A stretch of 39,512 nt of DNA, from assembly GCA_945830575.1 (NCBI GenBank), contig CALZZE010000024.1:1-39512 (forward strand), in the 5' to 3' direction. The position numbers were made by a program, and so were the translations under genes. This stretch comes from an uncultured Subdoligranulum sp. Lineage in GTDB: Bacteria; Bacillota; Clostridia; Oscillospirales; Ruminococcaceae. Below are positions 1-39,502 of this stretch, one piece after another. Within the stretch, counting starts at the first letter, position 1, and every line of letters starts with the position of its first letter. The notes under the pieces are model-generated. The model did no database searches, was not told the origin of the DNA, and worked only from the letters and a program-made list of their open reading frames with translations.

Positions 1-171
1 TTGTCGAAAAACCTCAATTTGCGTTTGTAGGGGGCGGCGTCCTCGACGCCCCGTGATGCGTTGCCAAACAAGAGACATCGTTGTAAGGCCACCTTTTTCG
101 GGCGGGACATGTCCCGCCCCTACGAATGATGGCAAGGTTTCTCGTTGTGATTGGACTTTTTTGACAGTCTG
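1..171. repeat. MITE-like intergenic repeat, copy 1 (left end cut by window edge)
   Basis: The window opens about five bases inside this element, which ends with TTTTTTGACAGTCTG at 157-171. It shares its whole plan with copies at 17442-17644 and 21597-21811: a left hairpin beginning GTAGGGG, a core containing TTGCCAAAC and CATCGTTGTAAGG, a right hairpin ending CCCCTACGAATGA, then a nearly invariant tail containing TTTCTCGTTGTGATTGGAC. No reading frame of interest is present. The right end lies two bases from the palindrome at 174-197. Non-autonomous mobility is inferred from copy 2, which has a target duplication. Confidence 0.85.
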
Positions 172-16462: not shown

Positions 16463-16547
16463 GGATTGTTACCGGTAATGCGGGCTAAACCAACTCTGTT
16501 TCGGGTACGCGTGAGATAGGCCCCGGCAGAGGTGGTTTATTTTTTTT
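16463..16547 (+). promoter_or_regulatory. RAT antiterminator site overlapping an intrinsic terminator
   Basis: The 29 bases at 16463-16491 begin GGATTGTTACCGG and end GGCTAAACC, matching the ribonucleic antiterminator consensus of LicT/BglG-family targets. AAACCAACTCTG (16487-16498) pairs, with one mismatch, with CAGAGGTGGTTT (16527-16538), followed by AT and seven T. The two structures share AAACC and are mutually exclusive. When the antiterminator protein binds the RAT, the terminator cannot form and the operon is read. Confidence 0.85.
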
Positions 16548-16562
16548 GTGGGGGCGCGGCAG

Positions 16563-17426
16563 TTGCGGATCAAAAAAGTCATCAACAACAATATCATCTG
16601 CGCGGTGGACGAGGACGGCTCGGAACTGATTGCCACCGGGCGCGGGCTGGGATTCCAGCGGCGCACCGGCGAGCGGGTGGACGAAAGCCTTGTGCAGAAG
16701 GTCTACCGCATGGTGGATCGCGGCCGTCAGCGGCGGCTGCGGGAGCTGGTGGAGGAGATCCCGCTGGAGCATCTGGCCCTCACCGAGGAGCTGGTCTCCC
16801 TCATCCGGCAGCAGCTGGACCAGCCGCTGAATGAATCGCTGCTCATCACCATGGCGGATCACATCAGCTTTGCCATCCGCCGCCAGCAGCAGGGCATCGC
16901 CTTTGAGAACCCGCTGTGCGGTGCGGTGATGAGCTATTACCCGGCGGAGTACCGGCTGGGACGGGAGTGCCTGCGCCAGATCCGGGAGCGGCTGGGTGTG
17001 GAACTGCCGGAGAGCGAGGCGTCCTTTCTGGCGCTGCACATCGTCAACGCCGAGCTGAACACCGAGATGAGCCAGATGATGGACATCACCCGGCTCATTG
17101 AAGGGGTCATCGATGTGGTGGAGGGCTACTATGGCCGGGCGTTTGACCGGGATTCGCTGTCCTTCAGCCGGTTCGTGGTGCATCTGCGGTACTTTGCCCA
17201 GCGGCTGTTCAAGAGCCGCCAGATGCCCGATACTGCGGACGAGCACGACGTGCTGTTCCGGCAGCTCATTGCCCGCAACTGCAAGGCCCACTACGGCTGC
17301 GCCATGGCCATTGCCGCCTATGTGCGGGAACAGTGGGACCGGGAGCTGTCCGACGAGGAGATGGTCTACCTGACCATCCACCTGAAACGGGTGGCCGGGG
17401 ACGGCAGCAGTCTTTCTTTGGAATAA
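16563..17426 (+). CDS. BglG/LicT-family transcription antiterminator
   Basis: The 287-residue RNA-binding regulator has a CAT domain (1-55: IKKVINNN, then RGLGFQ) and two PRDs, each with its two phosphorylatable histidines: DHISFAI and LALHIVNAE in PRD1, VVHLRYF and TIHLKRV in PRD2. HPr and the cognate EII control activity through these histidines. TTG at 16563 gives the canonical MRIKKVINNN start; the in-frame GTG at 16548 would add five residues. It is autoregulated by the RAT at 16463-16491 and precedes a glucose-type EIICBA, so it is the GlcT-like regulator of that PTS. Its stop codon is the first three bases of the 18-bp duplication flanking repeat copy 2. Confidence 0.9.
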   Translation: MRIKKVINNNIICAVDEDGSELIATGRGLGFQRRTGERVDESLVQKVYRMVDRGRQRRLRELVEEIPLEHLALTEELVSLIRQQLDQPLNESLLITMADHISFAIRRQQQGIAFENPLCGAVMSYYPAEYRLGRECLRQIRERLGVELPESEASFLALHIVNAELNTEMSQMMDITRLIEGVIDVVEGYYGRAFDRDSLSFSRFVVHLRYFAQRLFKSRQMPDTADEHDVLFRQLIARNCKAHYGCAMAIAAYVREQWDRELSDEEMVYLTIHLKRVAGDGSSLSLE

Positions 17427-17662
17427 CACCGGTTCCGGTGTCAGACTGTCAAAAAGCCTCAATTTGCGTTATTTGTGTTTGTAGGGGGCGGCGTCCCCGA
17501 CGCCCCGTGGTACGCTGCCAAACAAGAAGCATCGTTGCAGAGGCACCTTCTGCGGGCGGGACTGCAGGGCACCCTTACGGGCTGTCCCGCCCCTACGAAT
17601 GATGACAAGGTTTCTCGTTGTGATTGGACTTTTTTGATAGTCTGTAACACCGGTTCCGGTGT
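17424..17662. mobile_element. MITE-like element copy 2 with 18-bp target duplication
   Basis: A 203-bp element (17442-17644) begins CAGACTGTCAAAAAG and ends CTTTTTTGATAGTCTG, giving imperfect terminal inverted repeats of about 14 bases. It is bounded by identical copies of TAACACCGGTTCCGGTGT (17424-17441 and 17645-17662), each an inverted repeat in itself, so the target was a hairpin-forming site. The element contains two internal hairpins. It has no coding capacity and sits inside the antiterminator-PTS operon. Confidence 0.85.
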
Positions 17663-17685: not shown

Positions 17686-19824
17686 ATGAAAGACAAGATT
17701 TTCGGCGTGCTGCAGCGCGTGGGGCGGTCCTTTATGCTGCCCATCGCTCTGCTGCCGGTGGCGGGTCTGCTGCTGGGTATCGGCAGCTCCTTCACCAACC
17801 CCACCATGCTGCAGGCCTACGGCCTTGACAGCATCATCTACCAGGGCTCGGCCATCTACACCGTGCTGGACATCATGAACCAGTGCGGCAGCGCCATCTT
17901 CGGCAACCTGGCCCTGCTGTTCGCCATGGGTGTTGCCATCGGCATGGCCAAAAAGGAAAAGGAAGTGGCCGCGCTGTCCGGCGCCATCGCCTACCTCGTG
18001 ATGAACACCGCCATCAGCGCCATGATCACCGCGCAGGGCGGCGTGGAGGCCATGCCCGTCAACACCACCACCTCCATGCTGGGCATCACCACCCTGCAGA
18101 TGGGCGTGTTCGGCGGCATCATCGTCGGCCTCGGCGTGGCGGCGCTGCACAACCGGTTCTATAAAATCCAGCTGCCGCAGGTGCTTTCCTTCTTCGGCGG
18201 CACACGGTTCGTTCCCATCGTCTCCACCGCCGTGTTCCTGGTGGTGGGCATCGCTATGTTCTACATCTGGCCGGTGGTTCAGAACGCCATCACGCTGCTG
18301 GGCGATCTGGTCATCCGTTCCGGCTACGTGGGCACCTGGATCTACGGCGTGACGGAACGCGCCCTCATTCCCTTCGGCCTGCATCACGTGTTCTACATTC
18401 CCTTCTGGCAGACCTCTGTGGGCGGCTCCGCCGTGGTGGACGGCGTCACCGTGCAGGGCGCGCAGAACATCTTCTTCGCAGAGCTGGCCTCCAAGAGCAC
18501 CGAGGTGTTCTCGGTGGAAGCCACCCGTTTCATGTCCGGCAAGTTCCCGCTGATGATCTTTGGCCTGCCCGGCGCGGCGCTGGCCATGTACCGCACCGCC
18601 AAGCCGGAAAAGCGTAAGGTGGTGGGCGGCCTGCTCATCTCTGCGGCGCTGACCTCCATGCTCACCGGCATCACCGAGCCGCTGGAATTCACCTTCCTGT
18701 TCGTGGCCCCCGCCATGTACGTGGTGCACTGCATCTACGCGGGCCTCGCCTACATGCTCATGCACATCCTCAACGTGGGCGTCGGCATGACCTTCTCCGG
18801 CGGCCTCATCGACCTGACGCTGTTCGGCATCATGCAGGGCAACGCCAAGACCCACTGGCTGTGGGTGGTCGTTGTGGGCATCGCCTACTTCTTCCTGTAC
18901 TACTTCACCTTCTACTTCATGATCACCAAGGGCAACCTCAAGACCCCCGGCCGTGAGGACGACGACGAGGAGACCAAGCTGTTCACCCGCTCCGACTTCA
19001 AGGCCAAGACCGGCGTCGGCCCCGATGGCTCCGGCGTGGCGGCGAGTGACCCCGTTTCCGCCCAGATTTTGCAGGGTCTCGGCGGCAAGGCCAACATCTC
19101 CGACGTGGACTGCTGCGCCACCCGTCTGCGCGTGACGGTCATCGACCCCGCCAAGGTCAGCGACGCGGTGCTGAAAGGCTCCGGCGCCTCCGGCGTGGTG
19201 CATAAGGGCAACGGCATCCAGGTCATTTACGGCCCGCAGGTGGCGGTCATCAAGTCCAATCTGGTGGACTTCATGGAGACCCCGGCGGCTGCCGCCATCG
19301 GCCCCGCCACCGAGGCTCCCGCGCCCGCCCCGGCCGCGGCCCCTGCCGCCCCCGCCGGTGACAAAAAGCAGGACGCCGTGCTGAGCGCCCCCATGGCCGG
19401 CACCATCGTGCCCATGGCCGAGGTGAAGGACGAGGCCTTTGCCTCCTGTGCGCTGGGAGAAGGCGTGGCGGTGGAACCCGCCGAGGGCAAGCTGTTTGCC
19501 CCCGCCGACGGCTCCATTGACAACGTGTTTGACACCAAGCACGCCATCGGCATGACCACCGACAGCGGCGTGGAGCTGCTGCTGCATGTGGGCATCGACA
19601 CCGTCAAGCTGGGCGGGCAGCATTTCACCGCCCACGTAGCCAACGACCAGAAGGTCAAAAAGGGCGACCTGCTGCTGAGCTTTGACATGGAGGCCATCAA
19701 GGCGGCGGGCTACCTGTGCACCACCCCCATGATCGTCTGCAACACCGATGAATACCAGTCCGTCACCCCCATCGCCACCGGCAAGGTCAAGCCCGGTCAG
19801 GCGGTGCTGGAGGTCAAAGGCTGA
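17686..19824 (+). CDS. ptsG: PTS glucose-type transporter EIICBA
   Basis: The 712-residue fusion takes up and phosphorylates a hexose, most likely glucose. Domains in order: EIIC membrane channel (about 1-415; GITEPLEF at 328-335), EIIB (about 455-530; phosphorylated Cys477 in CCATRLR), a Pro/Ala linker (about 532-557), and EIIA of the Crr type (about 565-712; active H634 in LLLHVGIDTV and H619). Sequence alone does not separate glucose from N-acetylglucosamine, but the adjoining LicT/GlcT antiterminator favours a glucose system. It has the ribosome site TTTAGGAGG and a strong terminator. No separate EIIA gene is needed. Confidence 0.92.
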   Translation: MKDKIFGVLQRVGRSFMLPIALLPVAGLLLGIGSSFTNPTMLQAYGLDSIIYQGSAIYTVLDIMNQCGSAIFGNLALLFAMGVAIGMAKKEKEVAALSGAIAYLVMNTAISAMITAQGGVEAMPVNTTTSMLGITTLQMGVFGGIIVGLGVAALHNRFYKIQLPQVLSFFGGTRFVPIVSTAVFLVVGIAMFYIWPVVQNAITLLGDLVIRSGYVGTWIYGVTERALIPFGLHHVFYIPFWQTSVGGSAVVDGVTVQGAQNIFFAELASKSTEVFSVEATRFMSGKFPLMIFGLPGAALAMYRTAKPEKRKVVGGLLISAALTSMLTGITEPLEFTFLFVAPAMYVVHCIYAGLAYMLMHILNVGVGMTFSGGLIDLTLFGIMQGNAKTHWLWVVVVGIAYFFLYYFTFYFMITKGNLKTPGREDDDEETKLFTRSDFKAKTGVGPDGSGVAASDPVSAQILQGLGGKANISDVDCCATRLRVTVIDPAKVSDAVLKGSGASGVVHKGNGIQVIYGPQVAVIKSNLVDFMETPAAAAIGPATEAPAPAPAAAPAAPAGDKKQDAVLSAPMAGTIVPMAEVKDEAFASCALGEGVAVEPAEGKLFAPADGSIDNVFDTKHAIGMTTDSGVELLLHVGIDTVKLGGQHFTAHVANDQKVKKGDLLLSFDMEAIKAAGYLCTTPMIVCNTDEYQSVTPIATGKVKPGQAVLEVKG

Positions 19825-21595: not shown

Positions 21596-21596
21596 C

Positions 21597-21811
21597 AGTT
21601 TGTCAAAGAACCCTGTTTTGGTCTTACAATGAACACAATAATCGGTTTGTAGGGGCGGGACAGCCCGTAAGGGTGCCCTGCAGTCCCGCCCGTTGCGCGT
21701 TGCCAAACCAGAAACATCGTTGTAAGGCTGTCTTTCGCGGTCGAGGCATGCCTCGCCTCTACGAATGAGAGCAAGGTTTCTCGTTGTGATTGGACTTTTT
21801 TGACAGTCTGT
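21597..21811. repeat. MITE-like intergenic repeat, copy 3
   Basis: It begins CAGTTTGTCAAAG and ends TTTTTTGACAGTCTG. The core and right tail match copies 1 and 2. Its left hairpin module (21649-21691) is the exact reverse complement of the right module of copy 2 (17554-17596), 43 of 43 bases. The element fills the gap between the terminator at 21559-21595 and the stop codon of the flippase gene at 21814. No target duplication is visible here. Apart from this repeat, the 355-base gap from 21458 holds only the terminator and the structured segment at 21512-21547. Confidence 0.85.
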
Positions 21812-39425: not shown

Positions 39426-39502
39426 TGCCCCATAGCTCAGTCGGTTAGAGCACCTGACTGTTAATCAGGGTGTCGTCCGTTCAAGTCGGACTGGGGCAGC
39501 CA
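39426..39502 (+). tRNA. tRNA-Asn (anticodon GTT)
   Basis: The acceptor stem TGCCCCA pairs with TGGGGCA. The D arm GCTC/GAGC, anticodon arm CCTGA-CTGTTAA-TCAGG (GTT at 39460-39462) and T arm GTCCG-TTCAAGT-CGGAC are intact. Discriminator G and CCA are encoded. More genes of a tRNA cluster may follow beyond the window. Confidence 0.97.

Follow-up and report, generated by a model that had tools for sequence, protein, structure and literature searches.

A short mobile element with IS1182-type ends and the duplication of whole target hairpins in a Gemmiger genome

Introduction

A 203-bp element without a transposase gene lies between two identical 18-bp hairpins in a PTS operon of an uncultured Subdoligranulum sp. 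(assembly GCA_945830575.1). The element and its larger relatives insert into hairpins, mostly transcription terminators, and copy them whole, which accounts for the identical hairpins on its two sides. Throughout the element family, the target hairpin is regularly duplicated, and what is seen in the window is no accident of one target. Very probably, the element is a MITE that is moved in trans by a DDE transposase of the IS1182 family, whose insertion sequence (IS) is in the same genome, and the choice of target depends on a hairpin. The ends, the duplications, the hairpin dependence and an exact change from one hairpin to two in a relative can be read from the sequences themselves.

The window is the whole stretch of 39,512 nucleotides analysed here (contig CALZZE010000024.1), and its features are collected in Table 1. 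The genome to which it belongs is a Gemmiger assembly of 2.88 Mb in 69 contigs that is 99.89% complete, referred to as G000.

Table 1. Features of the window, with positions counted from its first letter
Feature	Positions	Strand	Basis
Second MITE-family copy, clipped by the contig start; hairpin beyond its right end	2..171	+	Own-genome match
LicT/BglG-type antiterminator gene (CAT_RBD, PRD)	16548..17426	+	Pfam
TAA, antiterminator gene stop codon, within left hairpin copy	17424..17426	+	ORF 16548-17426
Target hairpin copy, left, TAACACCGGTTCCGGTGT	17424..17441	+	Exact 18-mer
MITE, 203 bp, no transposase gene; non-autonomous, IS1182-type ends	17442..17644	.	Own-genome matches, end and flank comparison
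Terminal inverted repeat, left, CAGACTGTCAAAAA	17442..17455	+	End comparison
Terminal inverted repeat, right, CAGACTATCAAAAA on the minus strand	17631..17644	-	End comparison
Target hairpin copy, right, TAACACCGGTTCCGGTGT, identical to left	17645..17662	+	Exact 18-mer
PTS EIIC-EIIB-EIIA transporter gene, downstream of element	17686..19824	+	Pfam
Hybrid element: left end CAGTTTGTCAAAGA of another subfamily, right end of A type	21596..21810	+	Match, end and flank comparison

Element and operon context

The original prediction, made from the letters of the window, described a MITE-like element between two identical 18-mers, and every coordinate proved exact. The two copies of TAACACCGGTTCCGGTGT start 221 bp apart, and the open reading frames that touch the 203 bp between them are short mechanical frames. 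The predicted inverted ends were recovered as well, with agreement at 13 of the outer 14 positions (the right terminus reads TTTTTGATAGTCTG on the forward strand) and with the refinement that the two end types of the family differ. In the window copy, one end is the A-type 14-mer and the other differs from it by a single base. Inverted termini, presence in multiple copies, a target duplication and ends matching those of an IS identify the 203-bp element as a MITE.

That the 18-mer is a complete, duplicated hairpin was also upheld: each copy folds whole, and the same arrangement recurs at other paired copies. The empty site, as reconstructed, has an 8-pair stem and a 2-nt loop. This hairpin is among the shortest targets, its cut offsets are unequal (+1/-1), and it passed the lenient rule for T/A-rich tracts given below with a tail, TGGTTATAGTTT, that makes a poor terminator. 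Hits in a terminator scan were no more numerous than in shuffles.

Pfam matches to CAT_RBD and PRD before the element and to PTS EIIC, EIIB and EIIA after it agree with the predicted location in a PTS operon. TAA, the first three bases of the 18-mer, is the stop codon of licT as had been noted, and because the target is a small hairpin that starts at this codon, the insertion kept the licT stop; it also left the PTS gene's ribosome-binding region intact and added 221 bp. The RNA of the element with its flanking hairpins folds strongly (-113.7 kcal/mol, z -6.9), as expected from inverted repeats. The insertion may affect PTS expression. In 17 of 20 other Gemmiger licT loci, the interval between licT and the PTS gene contains, as judged by eye, an antiterminator-like sequence with a terminator, and by the same inspection the licT-PTS interval of the window has none. 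Upstream of licT, positions 16463-16548 of the window hold an antiterminator-like sequence and then a terminator-like stretch. The sole Rfam match in the window is a tRNA gene at 39426-39499.

Family copies in the same genome

Searched with the 203-bp element, G000 gave at least 44 matches (40 of 73 candidates scored), and a later search with the same element gave at least 24 among the matches listed. Stretches around 37 matches were analysed together with more around end motifs, and the resulting table of paired ends has 43 rows from 42 sources. Two recognised ends and a hairpin-type direct repeat with an overlap score of at least 11, of different sequence at each, were found in 19 of the 43 rows; another 10 have two ends with only a short or chance repeat, or with unlike hairpins on the two sides, and the remaining 14 have no end pair. 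RNAfold folds 18 of the 19 repeats as hairpins, and the AT-rich repeat of L036, despite its inverted bases, gives no such fold. Most copies combine one CAGACTGTCAAAAA end with one CAG(C/T)NTGTCGAAAA end (in L035 the two were interchanged between the end-type lists). In the hybrid element of Table 1, a 15-pair hairpin adjoins the left end only.

The hairpins of the paired copies are unrelated in sequence and the element ends are constant. Past mobility and exact ends, both claimed in the original prediction, are borne out by these own-genome copies, which share their ends and have duplicated hairpins of differing sequence; homologous copies might have had their ends elsewhere, and they have the same ends. 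Taken alone, the window copy, with identical hairpins directly adjoining its ends, would suit a different reading, in which hairpin, element and hairpin insert as one unit and the 18-mers are long ends instead of target duplications. Against such a unit, both the sequence and the length of the hairpin vary among the paired copies while the ends stay the same, and the empty sites discussed below bear on it further.

Within the genus, a search for the MITE found in other species mostly just its 30-nt internal palindrome and not its ends. A palindromic module of approximately TTTGTAGGGGGCGGCGTCCCCGACGCCCC, an internal part of the MITE, is scattered in several Gemmiger genomes (L188-L212) without MITE ends.

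Hairpins at element ends

Stretches fetched from G000 contain 71 distinct ends that match CAGNNTGTCRAARA, a count that excludes the right end of the window copy because one base has changed there. Stems with 7 or more pairs adjoin 62 of the 71 ends and stems with 6 or more adjoin 64, whereas 7 have no stem of at least 6 pairs; at 62 of the 71, the stem foot is no more than 3 nt from where the element ends. Among 3000 random positions of the window, which are mostly coding, the corresponding frequencies are 9.8% for at least 6 pairs and 3.9% for at least 7. Were the element to insert anywhere in intergenic DNA, hairpins could adjoin it merely through the abundance of terminators, as DNA beside genes is rich in them. 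However, when the position was shifted outward by 60, 80, 100 and 120 nt, stems of at least 7 pairs were found at just 4, 1, 7 and 2 of 68 ends, and the duplication itself coincides with the hairpin. The shifted controls rule out a chance association with terminators, and random intergenic insertion is hardly to be credited.

The positions of the cuts were analysed in 27 pairs, a set that excludes L027 and L036. In 24 of these, neither cut is more than 2 nt away from its stem foot, which is a further point against random insertion, and in 22 the cuts are equidistant from both feet. The exceptions are L019, unequal by 1 nt, the window copy, unequal by 2 nt, and L012, L032 and L128, at which the stem finder picked an inner or bulged stem. 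Such a placement of the cuts is expected if joining takes place at both 5' feet of the stem. Duplications range from 17 to 41 bp in paired copies and reach about 58 bp once, at an insertion between contigs C4 and C64.

A survey of terminator tracts covered 29 pairs, made up of 19 MITE copies and 10 IS. A T-rich tract follows the right hairpin in 20 of them, and by a lenient rule a T- or A-rich tract is present on the outer side in 24; most targets therefore look like intrinsic terminators. In L012, L128 and an insertion in genome G011 (contigs L089 and L110), the two hairpin copies agree in their stems and have loops in opposite orientations. Simple gap repair predicts the same orientation, and the reversal could be due to a short palindrome that flipped afterwards.

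The probable partner insertion sequence

A longer element, with CAGCTTGTCAAAAAACCT at its left end and CAGACTGTCAAAGA at its right, is entered at twelve contig ends in G000, each of which breaks off some 40-55 bp into it. Left ends are found at six contigs (C22, C45, C50, C32, C4 and C51) and right ends also number six (C10, C19, C28, C29 and, twice, C64). The same hairpin stands at the left and right ends of C45/C28, C50/C64 end, C51/C29 and C4/C64 start, the last with a target hairpin of about 58 nt; for four of the 12 contig ends no mate was found. At C51/C29 (L018, L071), the right hairpin of a MITE has itself received the IS, so that the order is hairpin, MITE, hairpin, IS, hairpin, with three copies of the hairpin in a row. 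A truncated copy on C14 (L078) preserves the start of an open reading frame, MEKWGKNARKEAVIVDLDMLVPN, of which only the first 23 codons are readable; it begins like an IS1182 transposase and closely resembles the N-terminal part of such relatives as L138. The partner is thus likely to be an IS1182-family insertion sequence located at the contig breaks of G000. The interior of the IS is absent from the assembly and PF13751 has no match in G000, so an intact transposase in this genome can only be inferred.

That this IS moves this MITE is suggested by their matching ends and by a habit shared within one genome. Another transposase, with the same end sequence and hairpin preference as the IS1182 element, might instead do so, given that MITE and IS have in common only about the outer 14-18 bp. 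Yet each of the two distinct MITE end types matches one of the two distinct IS ends (CAGCTTGTCAAAAAACCT, CAGACTGTCAAAGA) at 13 of 14 positions, and the unusual duplication is common to MITE and IS in the same genome, which makes a second transposase improbable.

The original prediction had also called for a search for full-length elements that encode a transposase, and this yielded IS1182-family relatives with similar ends. One scan of genome contigs with the N-terminal fragment of L089, from Gemmiger genome G011, returned 55 loci. Ten of these, in eight genomes (L114, L124, L127, L128, L132, L138, L141, L143, L152 and L155), have both ends and hairpin repeats of 20-41 bp; the other 45 are cut by contig ends, have no recognised end or have unlike hairpins on their two sides. 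An open frame of 469-494 aa is present in 8 of the 10 and is interrupted in L132 and L152. Proteins of four full-length relatives score 383-417 bits against NF033551 (transpos_IS1182; cut-off 270). Across 35 genomes of the genus, PF13751 matched in six, including IS1182-like subfamilies with other ends, and for the large IS1182 proteins of G008, G006, G017 and G022 no pair of CAGACTG-type ends flanked by direct repeats was found. Seven named records were also inspected; matching hairpin repeats are present in four, Javan87, YS387, YS225 (with a changed right edge) and phiJH1301-3, and no matching hairpin pair was found in an ISEfa7 copy on an Enterococcus plasmid, one unverified phage contig or a plasmid record that ends at the IS.

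In AP018533, flanking hairpins are exchanged among the IS copies L125, L126, L130 and L131. The left hairpin of L125 equals the right hairpin of L126, an exchange that would fit recombination between IS copies.

Empty and filled sites

The original prediction proposed a comparison with empty sites in related genomes, and this succeeded in part: a base-exact pair of empty and filled sites was obtained for a related phage IS, and none that is base-exact at the window locus. In the streptococcal phage Javan87 (MK448833), an IS of 1538 bp lies between two copies of the 26-bp hairpin AACCGCTCTCTTAATCGAGGGCGGTT. Javan90 (MK449010) has a single AACCGCTCTCTTAATCGAGGGCGGTT, followed by T residues, and no IS, and a comparison of 200 and 275 bp of flanking sequence shows no difference between the two phages. 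The Javan87 transposase scores 441.6 bits against NF033551 and has 44% identity to L138 over 441 aligned positions. One hairpin thus became two, to the base, in a relative of the partner IS and not in the window MITE.

At licT, the element is absent from all 20 of the other Gemmiger loci, and no base-exact empty site was found among them because the intergenic sequence is too diverged. Orthologues of six MITE sites were collected in 34 regions of other Gemmiger genomes, five of the six sites being anchored by one neighbouring gene only; at the site of L022, the match spans both neighbouring genes in three genomes. None of the 34 regions has an element end. A stem of at least 7 pairs is present in 32 of them, as exactly one stem in 19 and as two or three of differing sequence in 13, and is absent from 2. 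Because terminator sequences diverge between species, these orthologous sites speak for a hairpin that was present before insertion and not for a base-exact empty site.

Both comparisons return us to the possibility that the hairpins belong to the inserting unit. The empty Javan90 locus has the hairpin without the element, which refutes it for the phage relative, and 32 of the 34 Gemmiger regions retain a strong stem with no element end. We reject the hairpins as part of the element, and the single-unit reading is very improbable.

Mechanism

Insertion into, and duplication of, a pre-existing hairpin would proceed in three steps. The target would be chosen for an inverted repeat that can form a hairpin, in most cases that of an intrinsic terminator, and not for a fixed sequence. 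The IS1182-type transposase would then join DNA at the two 5' feet of the hairpin, and gap repair would leave one complete hairpin on each side of the element. We would expect the target to be recognised as an extruded cruciform. The inverted repeat might instead be bound as a duplex by a transposase dimer with no extrusion, and the long stagger would then reflect two independent joinings of single strands. The same duplications are expected under both models. The stem length and loop nevertheless vary widely (17-41 bp, and about 58 bp at C4/C64) and so should be hard to accommodate for a protein whose reach across the duplex is fixed, an argument by inference that leads us to regard duplex binding as rather unlikely.

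A broader proposal is that this IS1182 branch and its MITEs read the shape of DNA and not its sequence, with a terminator hairpin extruded, both of its 5' feet joined and the whole terminator copied; we see this as evenly poised between right and wrong. If it is true, the neighbouring gene keeps a terminator stem on its side after each insertion. Each insertion would also create a second target, so that hairpins would be self-multiplying landing sites, with which the nested insertions at C51/C29 fit. Copying of the whole hairpin explains how these elements land in terminators without removing them. The family offers natural material for testing the recognition of DNA structure by a DDE transposase, and its exact ends and readout of one hairpin or two are usable for an assay.

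Comparison with known systems

Most DDE elements make short target duplications of fixed length, and for the IS1182 family ISfinder gives long direct repeats of up to about 60 bp. Here the hairpin of the target itself determines how long the duplication is, whether 17-41 bp in the paired copies or about 58 bp in the single longest case. The IS1182-family elements of Oscillospirales and streptococcal phages (NF033551) resemble the window family in their CAG-starting ends, hairpin targets and whole-hairpin duplication, and differ in being IS of about 1.5 kb, whereas the window element is 203 bp without a transposase.

The IS1182 family and its preference for palindromes are already known, and palindromic targets have been reported for some of its members (PMC5678879, PMC4923244). 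In the open-access literature searched, we found no description of whole-hairpin duplication by IS1182 members, of MITE carriers or of an exact pair of empty and filled sites. MITEs and IS in REP palindromes likewise represent palindromic intergenic insertion, but in the available text of those reports the REP targets are a repeated sequence family, in contrast to the unrelated hairpin sequences here (PMC1525189, PMC8450116, PMC10969869).

Further parallels are IS1272 and TnSha1/TnSha2, IS1182-family elements of staphylococci that likewise target hairpins of no fixed sequence, some of them confirmed terminators (PMC5678879, PMC4923244). A staphylococcal phage record annotated as IS1272 has 23.5% identity to L138 over 49% of the query, and by this comparison IS1272 is a distant family member. 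IS1272 is reported to replace its target stem-loop (PMC5678879), and the hairpins targeted by TnSha1 and IS1272 are described as partly deleted and not duplicated (PMC4923244). In the accounts available, their hairpin is thus partly deleted or replaced, whereas here it is duplicated whole (PMC5678879, PMC4923244); the present elements have a hairpin on both sides, and the phage pair goes from one hairpin to two, unlike the replacement of a stem-loop. Duplication of a whole stem-loop, by joining at the 5' feet, was sketched as an alternative (PMC5678879, Fig 13, pathway b), and the present cases match that pathway as it is drawn there. Whole-hairpin duplication is therefore the counterpart of the stem-loop replacement made by IS1272.
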